Notes under the pieces: model-generated
Databases searched by the model: none
The model's input: only the letters and a program-made list of their open reading frames with translations
What the model was told of the DNA's origin: nothing
Shown here: in pieces, positions 5,275-31,961 of the stretch
How the letters are laid out: each line of letters opens with the position of its first letter
Position numbering within the stretch: the stretch's first letter is position 1
Position numbers and translations under genes: made by a program
Assembly (NCBI GenBank): GCA_016281085.1
Contig: JAEEHY010000175.1
Span: 1 to 37,744 of the forward strand
From: Lachnospiraceae bacterium
GTDB lineage: Bacteria > Bacillota > Clostridia > Lachnospirales > Lachnospiraceae
DNA: 37,744 bases
Reading direction: 5' to 3'

Positions 5275-6168
5275 CTAAGATTCCTCGACCGTGAAATTGT
5301 CTGAAAGAATAACCGACAATGTAATGCTTTTATCAAAAACATGGAGAGGAACATTTATTATATCTTCTGAATTAACTGTATTGTTTCCTATATGGTAATG
5401 AGGTGCGACCATATCAATATTTATAAACCTGTGACTTATATCTGTGGCAAATATACCGTTTATACAGTTGATAAGTTCACATATTGAATCAAGCGCATCA
5501 TCCATATCTTCTATGTATTCGGAACCTGCGAAACCGACAGCGGTCTTCATTAAAGTATCCGTATCTCCCGAAATCGCAAGAAGGAGATTGAAATCACCGT
5601 GAGAAGCCTGATAACAAAGGTTCTCGCATATGAGCTTATCACTTGTGTAAGGACGCTCAAGATAAACATGATAATCAACAAGCCTTGAAAGAGTTCTTAT
5701 CGCAACACCGATAAGTTCCTTGGCATAGGGCGGAAGATCATACAGATAAATAGGTACGATCCTGTCTATATCACAGCTCTTGAAATCCTCCATATCGGTC
5801 AAGGTATATCCGTTATCCTGCTGAAAATCATTAAGAAGATCAACAATCTCGTTCATTGTAATGAACTTAAGATCGACAGCGGACTGTACAAATGAAAGGA
5901 ATCCGTTCCCCTGAAGCGTGAGCAGCCTTGATACCTGATTGTCCGTAAGATAACCCTTTTCAACCGCAAGGTCACCAAAACGCTTGTCGGTAAGCGACTG
6001 CAGCTTGTTTATTTCCTCTACCTGTGACGGAGTCATAAGGTTTTCAGACTCGGCGATCATACCCAGACGTACGCGTTTTCTGGCCTGAAGATCAAATATC
6101 TTCTCAAGACTTTCGGGACCTATTTTACCGCTTCTAACCAGATAATCAGCCAAAATACGATCAAACAT
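5275..6168 (-). CDS. CheX-like chemotaxis phosphatase domain protein with MshEN/GspE-N-like N-terminus
   Basis: C-terminal DALDSICELINCINGIFATDIS carries a CheC/CheX-type E-x-x-N helix. The N-terminus has tandem RLGxxA...LxxxQ and RFGDLAVEKGYLTDNQVSRLLTLQ motifs. Directly upstream of cheY on the same strand. Confidence 0.7.
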   Translation of the reverse strand: MFDRILADYLVRSGKIGPESLEKIFDLQARKRVRLGMIAESENLMTPSQVEEINKLQSLTDKRFGDLAVEKGYLTDNQVSRLLTLQGNGFLSFVQSAVDLKFITMNEIVDLLNDFQQDNGYTLTDMEDFKSCDIDRIVPIYLYDLPPYAKELIGVAIRTLSRLVDYHVYLERPYTSDKLICENLCYQASHGDFNLLLAISGDTDTLMKTAVGFAGSEYIEDMDDALDSICELINCINGIFATDISHRFINIDMVAPHYHIGNNTVNSEDIINVPLHVFDKSITLSVILSDNFTVEES

Positions 6169-6207
6169 AATGTTTCTCCTTTAGACAAACAATTTTGTAC
6201 ATATATA

Positions 6208-6236
6208 ATAATAGCAAAAATATTACGCAACTTCAA
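6208..6236 (-). promoter_or_regulatory. Putative sigma-A promoter of the CheX-like/cheY unit
   Basis: Minus strand TTGAAG-N17-TATTAT, upstream of the 5275-6168 gene. Confidence 0.45.
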
Positions 6237-6259
6237 TGAATAAGTTGGTTTTATTTTAT

Positions 6260-6401
6260 GTAACTATTCAGAACAGCACAAATATTTTAAAATATGACTC
6301 TCATGCTAGCATGAAAGAGGCATGTTTTATAAATATTTGTATTGGATGAATCCCCAAAAGCGAAAAATACGAAGTATTTTGAGCCTGTTATGAATAGTTA
6401 C
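6260..6401 (+). repeat. Dispersed ~142-bp MITE-like element, copy 2
   Basis: GTAACTATTCAGAACAG ... CTGTTATGAATAGTTAC, with an internal hairpin around the palindrome tcatgctagcatga (6301-6314). Confidence 0.9.
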
Positions 6402-6470
6402 AATTTTAATATAATCCGACCCCATAATTTGTTGTGTGAAAATTTGTTCGTACAATAATTGGTGTTTTTC

Positions 6471-6498
6471 TTGAAAAATAACAAAACTATGTTATAAT
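6471..6498 (+). promoter_or_regulatory. Putative sigma-A promoter of the topoisomerase operon
   Basis: TTGAAA (6471-6476), N16, TATAAT (6493-6498), about 113 nt upstream of the ATG at 6611. Confidence 0.7.
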
Positions 6499-6610
6499 GT
6501 TATATGTTTTTGAGGATGTGGGAGTATATTTGTTTCATTTTATGTCTTTGGCCTGGTGCAAATGACATATATATGAACAAAAGAGGAATAATGTCATAAG
6601 GGGTAAAGGT

Positions 6611-8530
6611 ATGGCAAATAAAGTTACATATGATGCAAGCAGTATCACAGTTCTTGAAGGTCTTGAGGCTGTCCGCAAGCGTCCGGGAATGTATATAGGT
6701 AGCGTGACGACCAAGGGACTAAATCACCTGATTTATGAAATTGTAGACAATTCCGTTGATGAGCACCTTGCCGGGTTCTGCTCGGAGATAAAGGTTACTC
6801 TTGAAGCAGACGGGTCCGCGACGATCGAGGATAACGGCAGGGGAATACCCGTTGGTATGCATGAAAAGGGAATGAGCGCCGAAAGACTGGTTTTTACCAC
6901 TCTGCACGCAGGCGGTAAGTTCGATGATTCCGTTTATAAGACCAGCGGAGGACTGCACGGAGTAGGTTCATCGGTCGTAAATGCTCTTTCCGAATACCTT
7001 GATATAGAGGTGAGACGTGAGGGCAAGGTTTTTCACGACAGATACAGCAGGGGAGTTCCCACGGTCGAGCTTGAAGACGGATTACTTCCCGTGATCGGCA
7101 GATCACGTACTACGGGTACCAAGATCAATTTCCTTCCGGATGATACCATTTTTGAGAAAACCAGGTTCAAGGAAGAGGATATAAAGAGCCGCCTGCATGA
7201 GACTGCATATCTCAATCCCGAACTTACGATTATATTTACGGATAACAGACAGGAGATTCCCGAGACTGAGACCTTTCATGAAGAGGACGGTATCATTGGC
7301 TTTGTCCGTGACATGAACCGTAATGAAGAAGCAATACATGAGCCGGTATTTTTCAGGGGCGAAGCAGACGGAATAAAGGTTGAGGTTGCATTCCAGTATG
7401 TTAATGATTTTCATGAGAATGTGCTGGGTTTCTGTAACAACATATACAATTCGGAGGGCGGAACCCATCTGACGGGCTTCAAGACGATGTTCACCAATGT
7501 CATGAACAATTACGCCAGGGAGCTGAATATCCTTAAGGAGAAGGATGCCAATTTCACCGGTGCCGATATAAGAAACGGAATGACTGCGGTTGTCTCGATA
7601 AAGCATCCGAGTCCGCGCTTTGAAGGCCAGACAAAGACCAAGCTGGACAATCAGGACGCAACCAAGGCAGTAGCCAAGGTCACGGGAGATGAAGTCGTAA
7701 GATATTTTGACAGAAACCTTGAAGACTTAAAGGCTGTCATCGCATGTGCCGAAAAGGCTGCCAAGATAAGAAAGACCGAGGAAAAGGCCAAGACCAATAT
7801 GCTCACCAAGCAGAAATACAGCTTTGACAGCAACGGCAAGCTGGCCAACTGCGAGAGCAGGGATGCTTCCAAATGTGAGATATTCATAGTCGAGGGTGAC
7901 TCGGCGGGCGGGTCGGCAAAGACTGCGAGAAACCGTATGTATCAGGCCATACTTCCGATCAGGGGTAAGATACTGAATGTGGAGAAGGCAACCATAGACA
8001 AGGTACTGGCCAATGCCGAGATAAAGACCATGATATATGCATTCGGCTGCGGTTTTTCGGAAGGATACGGAAATGACTTTGATATCACCAAGCTCAGATA
8101 TGATAAGATAATCATCATGGCTGATGCCGATGTGGACGGAGCCCATATTTCGACTCTTCTCCTGACACTGTTTTACAGGTTTATGCCGGAGCTTATATAT
8201 GAAGGACATGTATATATAGCAATGCCGCCCCTTTATAAGGCTATGCCCAGGAAGGGGAAGGAGGAATACCTGTATGATGACAAGGCTTTGTCGGAGTATC
8301 GCAAGTCTCATACCGATTTCACGCTTCAGCGTTATAAGGGACTCGGTGAAATGGATGCCGAACAGCTGTGGGAGACAACGCTGGATCCACAAAGGCGTAT
8401 GCTTAAGCAGGTTGAAATAGAGGATGCGCGTCTGGCAAGTAACACGACAGAAATGCTTATGGGTAATGAAGTTCCGCCGAGGAAGGCTTTCATATATAAA
8501 CATGCACGTGATGCGGAACTTGATATTTGA
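6611..8530 (+). CDS. Type IIA DNA topoisomerase subunit B (GyrB/ParE family; DNA gyrase or topoisomerase IV subunit B)
   Basis: GLEAVRKRPGMYIGS, EIVDNSVDEHLAG, VYKTSGGLHGVGSSVVNALS, IVEGDSAGGSA, PLRGKILNVEKA-like IRGKILNVEKA, RYKGLGEMDAEQLWETT. Confidence 0.95.
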   Translation: MANKVTYDASSITVLEGLEAVRKRPGMYIGSVTTKGLNHLIYEIVDNSVDEHLAGFCSEIKVTLEADGSATIEDNGRGIPVGMHEKGMSAERLVFTTLHAGGKFDDSVYKTSGGLHGVGSSVVNALSEYLDIEVRREGKVFHDRYSRGVPTVELEDGLLPVIGRSRTTGTKINFLPDDTIFEKTRFKEEDIKSRLHETAYLNPELTIIFTDNRQEIPETETFHEEDGIIGFVRDMNRNEEAIHEPVFFRGEADGIKVEVAFQYVNDFHENVLGFCNNIYNSEGGTHLTGFKTMFTNVMNNYARELNILKEKDANFTGADIRNGMTAVVSIKHPSPRFEGQTKTKLDNQDATKAVAKVTGDEVVRYFDRNLEDLKAVIACAEKAAKIRKTEEKAKTNMLTKQKYSFDSNGKLANCESRDASKCEIFIVEGDSAGGSAKTARNRMYQAILPIRGKILNVEKATIDKVLANAEIKTMIYAFGCGFSEGYGNDFDITKLRYDKIIIMADADVDGAHISTLLLTLFYRFMPELIYEGHVYIAMPPLYKAMPRKGKEEYLYDDKALSEYRKSHTDFTLQRYKGLGEMDAEQLWETTLDPQRRMLKQVEIEDARLASNTTEMLMGNEVPPRKAFIYKHARDAELDI

Positions 8531-11927: not shown

Positions 11928-12555
11928 GATTGAACAGATAATTGATGAAATCGAGGATTTTATAAGCGGATGCAAGTTCCAGGCTTTCTCAGGCGCCAAT
12001 ATCATTGTGGACAAAGAGCATCTTGAAGAGCTTTTAAGGGAACTCAGGATGAAAACTCCCGATGAGATCAAGCGCTATCAGAAGATCATAAGTAATAAGG
12101 AAGCCATCTTAAATGATGCCAAGGAGAAGGCCGAGGCTATGATCAATGAAGCTCAGATACACACTGATCATATGGTAAATGAGCATGAGATCATGCAGCA
12201 GGCATATGCACAGGCAAACGAGGTTGTACAGCAGGCTGTTTCACAGGCACAGCAGATACTCGATACTGCGACCAATGATGCGAACGGCATACGGCAGTCT
12301 GCCATGAAATATACCGATGATATGCTGGCTGAACTGCAGGGAATAATAAAGACGGCAATAGGTGATGCCCAGTCGAAATACACGGGATTGCTGGAGCGTC
12401 TTAAGAACTGCGAGACGATAATAGATAAAAACAGGTCGGACCTGTATCCGCAGGTGGAGCTTGAAAAAGAGATCGCATCGATTGAGGGAACATCAAATAA
12501 GTCTAAGCTGTCTAAAACAGGCGGTATAAGTCTTGATATGCTGAATAATAAATAA
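11917..12555 (+). CDS. Coiled-coil protein, function unknown (ATPase/DivIVA-like annotation class)
   Basis: ORF overlaps the coaD 3' end. Long Ala/Gln-rich heptad region ([13 protein letters not shown]...[32 protein letters not shown]). Confidence 0.75.
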
Positions 12556-12557
12556 TG

Positions 12558-12700
12558 GTAACTATTCAGAACAGGCTCAAAATACTTCGTATTTTTCGCT
12601 GTTTTGGATTCATCCAATACATATATTTGTAAAACATGTCCCTTACATGCGAGCATGACGTGCCATGTTTTAAAATATATGTGCTGTTCTGAATAGTTAC
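12558..12700 (-). repeat. Dispersed ~143-bp MITE-like element, copy 3, flanked by 8-bp direct repeats
   Basis: GTAACTATTCAGAACAG ... CTGTTCTGAATAGTTAC, flanked by aaataatg at 12550-12557 and 12701-12708. Confidence 0.93.
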
Positions 12701-12740
12701 AAATAATGTAACTATTCTGTTTATTTTGGAAGTGCATCAT

Positions 12741-30877: not shown

Positions 30878-31815
30878 CGGGTCCGACCGGTGTCGGTAAA
30901 ACCGAATTGTCCATAAAGCTCGCAAAAAGGCTTGACGGTGAAATAATATCGGCTGACAGCATGCAGGTATACCGGCATATGGATATAGGGACAGCCAAGA
31001 TCACAAAAGAAATGATGCAGGGGATACCTCATCATCTGATCGATGTGCTTGAGCCTACGGAAGACTACAACGTTTCAAGGTTCAAGGAGGAGGCCTTAAG
31101 GGCAATACAGGAGATCCTGTCGCGTGACAGGATACCCATAATAGTGGGTGGTACGGGCTTTTATATACAGGCGCTTCTGTATGATATTGATTTTACGGAT
31201 AATGCACAGACTCCGTACAGAGAGGAACTGTTCCGGCTTGCAAAAGAGAAGGGGAACGGATATCTGCATGATGAGTTGAAAAAATGTGATCCCGGTGCGG
31301 CAGGATATATTCATGCCAATGACATTAAAAGGGTTACAAGGGCTCTTGAATTCTTTCATGAAACAGGTAAGAAGATCTCCGAACATAACGAGGAGGAAAG
31401 GAAACGGGAATCTCCGTATGATTTCAGATATTTTGTTCTGAACCGGCCGCGGGATCTTCTGTATGAGCGTATCAACAGACGTGTTGATGATATGATCAGG
31501 GCAGGCCTTGTAAATGAAGTAAAGCAGCTTCTTGAGATCGGATGTGACGGCTCAATGGTGTCGATGCAGGGACTGGGATACAAAGAGATAATAGATTATC
31601 TTGAAGGTAATATAACCCTGGAAAATGCGATAGATACAATAAAACGCGATACAAGACATTTCGCCAAGAGACAGCTTACATGGTTCAGGCGTGAGCGTGA
31701 TGTGATCATGATAAACAAGGACGAATTTGATTATGATGATGAGAAGATACTTGAATTCATAATGAAGTATTTTGAGCCTGTTCTGAATATGGTAACTATT
31801 CAGAACAGCACATAA
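30850..31815 (+). CDS. miaA: tRNA dimethylallyltransferase; C-terminal codons lie in repeat sequence
   Basis: LILTGPTGVGKTELSIKLAKRL, ISADSMQVYRHMDIGTAK, IPHHLID, IIVGGTGFYIQALL. The 3' end overlaps repeat copy 4. Confidence 0.97.
   Translation: MDKSPLLILTGPTGVGKTELSIKLAKRLDGEIISADSMQVYRHMDIGTAKITKEMMQGIPHHLIDVLEPTEDYNVSRFKEEALRAIQEILSRDRIPIIVGGTGFYIQALLYDIDFTDNAQTPYREELFRLAKEKGNGYLHDELKKCDPGAAGYIHANDIKRVTRALEFFHETGKKISEHNEEERKRESPYDFRYFVLNRPRDLLYERINRRVDDMIRAGLVNEVKQLLEIGCDGSMVSMQGLGYKEIIDYLEGNITLENAIDTIKRDTRHFAKRQLTWFRRERDVIMINKDEFDYDDEKILEFIMKYFEPVLNMVTIQNST
31764..31789 (+). repeat. Partial end of the dispersed element (26 nt)
   Basis: gaagtattttgagcctgttctgaata is identical to the distal end of the full copy at 31792-31933. 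Confidence 0.85.
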
Positions 31816-31933
31816 ATTTTAAAATATGATGTGTCATGCTTGCATGTAAACAGCATATTTTATAAATTTATGTATTGGATGAATCCAAAACAGCGAAAAA
31901 TACGAAGTATTTTGAGCCTGTTCTGAATAGTTA
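31792..31933 (+). repeat. Dispersed ~142-bp MITE-like element, copy 4
   Basis: GTAACTATTCAGAACAG...CTGTTCTGAATAGTTA, same internal architecture as the other copies. Confidence 0.92.
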
Positions 31934-31961
31934 AAAGAAACAATCAGAAAGAGGTAAGGAT

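Follow-up and report, generated by a model that had tools for sequence, protein, structure and literature searches.

The window, a stretch of 37,744 nucleotides of Lachnospiraceae DNA analysed at its full length, contains four copies of a repeat of 141 to 143 bp, and these copies are non-autonomous mobile elements of the MITE type. The best explanation overall, to which we assign a probability of roughly 0.8, is that the repeat is a MITE that carries a structured RNA, that this RNA is homologous to, though divergent from, Clostridiales-1 RNA, and that its fold is under purifying selection. A previous sequence-only reading of the window had proposed selection on a folded structure, leaving open whether the structure is RNA or a DNA cruciform; mobility of the element and kinship with Clostridiales-1 RNA were absent from it.

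Each copy is a DNA transposon of the MITE type: its inverted ends are 17 bp long, its target duplication is 8 bp, and a transposase would mobilize it in trans. Its cargo would be a structured RNA whose multi-branch fold, containing hairpin A, a second hairpin and hairpin C, is closed by pairing between the ends. The analysis demonstrates the mobility, the homology, the covariation and the strand bias. We infer that the element is transcribed; on this view, the compensatory changes in hairpin A result from purifying selection that maintains the fold of one strand's transcript.

Layout and mobility of the element

The elements are approximately 142 bp in length and have inverted ends GTAACTATTCAGAACAG and CTGTTCTGAATAGTTAC. 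Copy 2 (6260-6401, + strand, 142 bp) resides in a divergent intergenic region (6168-6611) directly upstream of gyrB, with gyrB on one side and a minus-strand gene on the other. On the + strand it includes the left terminal inverted repeat (6260-6276, GTAACTATTCAGAACAG), hairpin A (6278-6340), a small second hairpin (6342-6355, TTGGATGAATCC(CC)), hairpin C (6360-6384) and the right terminal inverted repeat (6385-6401), which has one mismatch (CTGTTATGAATAGTTAC). The second hairpin is degraded in copy 2 and is GNRA-like in other genera, and hairpin C has the form GCGA-AAAATAC(GAA)GTATTTT-GAGC, with tandem G.A mismatches and a GNA triloop. Copy 2 matches R1, a covariance model built from the element, with 150 bits in its own genome.

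Hairpin A is the hairpin that the sequence-only reading had reported at 6277-6352; the hairpin is real, but the interval given for it extends into the beginning of the small hairpin that follows. In copy 2 it consists of an outer 10-bp stem, a 1-nt bulge, a 9-bp stem, a variable upper stem and a 4-bp apical stem, and its tetraloop is CUAG in copy 2 and CUUG in most copies. All arm variants that had been quoted for the four copies are present in the sequence. The upper stem, which had been overlooked, is the most variable part: it reads ACC../..GGG in copy 1, CTCT/AGAG in copy 2, GCAC../..GGGA in copy 3 and TGT/ACA in copy 4.

Copy 1 (1-141, - strand, 155.5 bits) is truncated by the contig end and has hairpin A at 60-123. 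In copy 3 (12558-12700, - strand, 169 bits) this hairpin is at 12619-12682, and in copy 4 (31792-31934, + strand, 165.7 bits) it is at 31810-31873. The insertion of copy 4 adjoins an end fragment of another copy, the fifth and destroyed one in the window, of which a right-end portion is left (31764-31789, + strand, 96-100% identity to the right end).

The whole element, as RNA or as DNA, is predicted to fold into a closed multi-branch structure in which the terminal repeats pair and enclose hairpin A, the small hairpin (TTGGATGAATCCAA) and hairpin C. The predicted RNA folds of the whole of copy 2 (-48.1 kcal/mol, z = -8.8) and copy 4 (-51.6 kcal/mol, z = -8.4) were not equalled in stability by any shuffled sequence, and the DNA fold is equally extreme (z -10).

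The source assembly, a MAG of 3.26 Mb in 414 contigs (87.8% complete, 7.4% contaminated), has 155 matches to the 17-bp inverted ends with at most one mismatch, versus none for a reversed control pattern. R1 gives 96 raw matches in this genome, opposite-strand echoes included; with the weaker of these echoes and split long forms removed, we estimate that there are about 65 to 70 loci. Many contigs of this assembly (G000) break exactly within a copy (C227:1, C146, C124, C148, C263, C168, C347 and C407), so the repeat limits assembly and the number of copies is a lower bound.

Of the 67 complete copies in this genome and its relatives, 30 are flanked by perfect 8-bp target duplications, where 0.55 would be expected, and border repeats of other lengths show nothing comparable in these copies. 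Copy 3 has a perfect 8-bp duplication (AAATAATG, at 12550-12557 and 12701-12708). Its site is empty in the sister species G516, whose flanks are 90% identical and which has one AAATAATG versus two in the window. The duplication of copy 2 has decayed (TATTTTAT/AATTTTAA, 6/8). The same left end is found in eight other Lachnospiraceae MAGs, mostly from the rumen, and 52 of 53 copies are outside long ORFs. Searches of phage and plasmid collections returned no match.

The copies are modular. In those of 232 bp, two additional hairpins separate hairpin A from the second hairpin, and copies of 189 or 279 bp have an extra hairpin before the right end. The long forms (232-279 bp) include L031 (398-629), L033 (448-726), L068, L073, L079 and L086. 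The loops of their extra hairpins are GCGAGG..TTCGAGC and AATGAGG..TTCGAATT, and the second of these matches the UGAG/CGAA hairpin of Clostridiales-1 RNA. In L032 and L084, one loop additionally contains a nested GC-rich hairpin. Derivatives of ~45 bp in the same genome (L074, L072 and L075, in contigs C207, C171 and C212) consist of the two inverted ends, the hairpins having been deleted.

IS66-family transposons share with the element ends that begin GTAA and an 8-bp duplication, although the element, unlike them, has no transposase. IS66 parentage was nevertheless rejected: the ends and the duplication length fit, but no IS66 with the ends of the element is among those sampled. GTAACTATTC ends were detected at none of 29 Lachnospiraceae IS66 loci, nor at the one IS66 in the same genome as the window, whose ends (GTAAGCGCTTAATAATACCGCG) are unlike those of the element. 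A non-exhaustive search of the IS66 sample and the retrieved loci gave no autonomous partner with the same ends. The sole candidate for a long autonomous element between two ends with matching duplications was AT-rich and was judged to be a chance occurrence. A literature search on MITEs and IS66 in Lachnospiraceae found nothing relevant.

ERIC and Correia/NEMIS repeats resemble the element in being palindromic and MITE-like, with lengths of about 100-160 bp and folding transcripts. They differ in that they occur in other taxa and have other ends, and in that the element is not preferentially oriented with respect to genes. BOX elements of Streptococcus pneumoniae are also modular, multi-copy, intergenic and without transposase; their RNA has strong secondary structure, and some of their internal modules are optional (PMC3049150). 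The likeness considered here is one of architecture. Unlike that of BOX, the fold of the element has been conserved in many genera and on two transposon chassis.

Covariation and the strand under selection

We aligned 41 distinct hairpin A sequences from the same genome and its relatives (the close set). One upper-stem gap in the MAFFT alignment was mis-registered. Double-sided changes occur in 18 of 29 pairs, amounting to 113 double-changed cells versus 37 in shuffles, and the covariation score is 0.251, versus 0.018-0.093 for slid partners, whose registers collapse. After re-registration, the cells comprise 1057 Watson-Crick, 17 G.U, 7 A.C and 84 G.A. We also used a tree-aware null in the style of R-scape, in which FastTree substitutions are redistributed over columns and pairs are scored with a G statistic with average-product correction. 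This gave E < 0.05 for 6 of the 29 structure pairs, and for none of 2051 other column pairs.

R1 matches 104 of 299 Lachnospiraceae genomes and, across the order, 19 of 196 genomes, five of which belong to other families. The cross-genus set (alignment A4) contains 81 sequences from ~47 genera and was fitted to R1. The stems of these sequences have little sequence in common, but their architecture is kept. Over the whole fold, 56 of 57 pairs have double changes and 91.9% of cells pair; the covariation score is 0.655, versus 0.07-0.10 for slid partners, and the tree-aware null leaves 49 of the 57 structure pairs significant and none of 9673 others. Since this alignment was fitted to the model, the close set is the cleaner test of covariation. 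In L138, L179 and L190, which represent two species, a longer insert (CAAGCTGCGACGCGAAGCTAGTCCTTTAGGGCTTG) takes the place of the apical CUUG loop of hairpin A.

Within subfamilies that several MAGs have in common, many copies are identical, and shared ancestry among a few subfamilies might therefore produce an artefactual covariation. However, covariation was detected with phylogeny controlled, and the same architecture occurs with unrelated stem sequences in ~47 genera, which leaves this explanation a negligible probability. The distal segment of the element, which had been described as almost invariant, fits that description among close copies only; in L192 and in other genera it varies, and compensatory changes are found there too.

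The strand carrying the signal can be recognized from imperfect pairs. On the sense strand of hairpins A to C, G.U pairs outnumber A.C by 77:20 in counts of column x genus, which are not fully independent events, and hairpins A and C have 81 G.A mismatches versus 13 that are C.U. The terminal stem has a milder excess of G.U over A.C (37:21), which means that alignment bias, or an RNA function of the terminal stem, may account for some of the asymmetry. When the loop of hairpin A is swapped for the same AAAA on both strands, the sense strand is the more stable in 39 genera and the antisense strand in 7 (p 1.8e-6). G.U counts in unconstrained minimum-energy folds lean weakly to the sense strand (26 versus 15 genera, p 0.12), so that most of the case for asymmetry comes from the aligned-pair and loop-neutral tests. 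Of the 81 sequences, 59 (36 genera) have CUUG as the apical loop, and the variants are CUCG, UUUA, CUAG and UUCG. Because cruciform extrusion and arm copying are strand-symmetric, this one-stranded signal points to RNA, and so favours one side of the choice that the sequence-only reading had left open.

The hairpin might instead act as DNA, in the form of a cruciform or a single-stranded hairpin recognized by transposase or host factors, so that complementarity is kept at the DNA level. The element is a transposon and its DNA fold is as extreme as its RNA fold; GNA triloops and tandem G.A mismatches are stable in DNA as well. However, a cruciform extrudes both strands, and equal numbers of G.T and A.C, and of G.A and C.T, would be expected in place of the excesses observed. 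Moreover, the inverted ends and the 8-bp duplications indicate a DDE mechanism that acts on double-stranded, not single-stranded, DNA. We therefore consider a DNA function very unlikely as the source of the pattern. Neutral arm copying was also weighed, as polymerase template switching within a quasi-palindrome copies one arm onto the other (PMC8794818) and makes compensatory changes without selection. Some neighbouring pairs do change as blocks (TATGAAC.. versus TACAGGG..), and isolated A-U/U-A flips are common. However, this process predicts strand-symmetric, perfectly complementary arms, and it would erase purine mismatches and bulges between covarying pairs. The pattern observed is instead one of conserved purine-purine mismatches and bulges with a strong single-strand bias, to which arm copying is blind, and of a CUUG-type tetraloop that stays fixed while its stem changes. 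Arm copying may contribute mutations yet be insufficient alone, and as a neutral account of the whole pattern it is very unlikely. Selection on the folded structure, as originally proposed, is largely borne out by the covariation that persists under the tree-aware null and by the evidence against arm copying.

Kinship with Clostridiales-1 RNA

Judged by covariance-model matches, the element is homologous to Clostridiales-1 RNA (Rfam RF01699), an orphan candidate sRNA, from which it has diverged. A 2010 listing classed this candidate as probably an RNA, and as neither cis-regulatory nor a riboswitch (Weinberg 2010, PMC2864571). At the gathering threshold (48 bits), Rfam has no match in the window, and the kinship surfaced in a permissive Rfam search on relatives of the element. 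Among these, L116 scores 44.1 bits, L123 39.9 bits and L341 51.7 bits, the last being above the cut-off of 48. Two loci in the same genome as the window score 32.0 bits (L033, a longer copy) and 59.9 bits (L235, with borders GTAACTATTC/GAATAGTTAC), and L116 and L235 have the same ends as the window elements. R1 in turn matches the RF01699 loci L235 (5e-8), L231 (6.5e-6) and L210 (1.3e-4), such that the covariance models of the two RNAs match each other's loci. Other weak Rfam matches, for example to microRNA families of plants and animals, were put down to chance.

Both RNAs have a closed multi-branch fold with a closing stem, a first hairpin with an apical GCUUGC, and a last hairpin with a G.A-rich internal loop and a C(GNA)G loop, to which hairpin C is related. 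The UGAG/CGAA hairpin of Clostridiales-1 RNA is missing from the 142-nt window type and is an optional module in copies of 232-279 nt. The window type also differs from classic RF01699 RNAs in falling below the Rfam cut-off, and in having GTAACTATTC ends and 8-bp duplications, as opposed to TGATGYYRGGGTCAAAAG ends and 5-bp duplications.

RF01699 RNAs are present in 112 of 200 Lachnospiraceae genomes, many of which have several copies. Classic loci (L202-L231) were taken from 30 Lachnospiraceae genomes. Their copies are bounded by TGATGYYRGGGTCAAAAG...CTTTTGACCCCAACATCA and have a duplication of ~5 bp in 11 of 20 cases versus 1.3 expected, the borders and duplication length having been chosen from a scan. 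Classic Clostridiales-1 RNAs are mobile elements of a second type. Since the ends and duplication lengths of the window-type and classic elements differ, one RNA core is carried on at least two transposon chassis. In the literature covered, a search for Clostridiales-1 RNA in connection with transposons found no paper. Some relatives of the RNA core in other genera (L287, L298, L341, L342, L344, L351, L354-L356 and L360) have closing stems unrelated to GTAACTATTC, such as GAGCCATGC/GCATGGCTC, and perhaps represent further chassis or non-mobile copies.

The element belongs to a known kind, a MITE combined with an orphan structured RNA, to which it adds a variant and, plausibly, a route to something new. 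Since 2010 Clostridiales-1 RNA has remained an orphan candidate, and it appears here, with its relatives, as mobile multi-copy cargo. The question thereby shifts from the host gene that it regulates to the benefit that it brings to a mobile element. Mobility explains the abundance of such repeats in gut and rumen Lachnospiraceae genomes, and, for a major family of gut bacteria, the element provides a system that is abundant and testable.

Gene context and possible roles of the RNA

No promoter or rho-independent terminator of its own was recognized in the element. We recorded the orientation of neighbouring genes for 53 copies of the close set, 26 of the cross-genus set and 26 RF01699 RNAs. 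The downstream gene is in the sense orientation versus not in 27 versus 24, 16 versus 9 and 12 versus 12 cases, respectively, and the upstream gene in 15 versus 32, 12 versus 13 and 14 versus 12. The gene upstream of the left end thus mostly points away in the close set only.

In other bacteria, BOX-like repeats have effects on the genes with which they are co-transcribed (PMC3049150). Copies of the element are close to genes, and its folded RNA might act in cis on co-transcribed genes in the manner of BOX, ERIC or Correia repeats, through stability, attenuation or RNase III cleavage. However, the three sets have no consistent sense relation to their neighbours, which disfavours cis-regulation of host genes as the reason for selection. 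In many copies the selected strand runs antisense to the genes on both sides, and this would be hard to explain if the RNA acted in cis, a role that we consider unlikely.

Our working guess, which is tentative, is that the RNA carried by the MITE acts in trans or on propagation of the element, for example as a stable element-encoded sRNA, and not as a cis-regulator of neighbours. A bolder and rather doubtful proposal is that the Clostridiales-1 class is a transposon-borne RNA with at least two unrelated sets of ends that acts in trans for its element by helping, choosing or controlling the transposase. If true, the class would be a new kind of RNA-assisted mobile element, not a host sRNA.

Isolated single ends (GTAACTATTCAGAACAG) also occur directly upstream of apparent start codons in the same genome as the window, for example at L053 (C59:9017), L081 (C260:971), L078 (C237:1030) and L087 (C325:7053). 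These are remnants that are possibly used in leaders.
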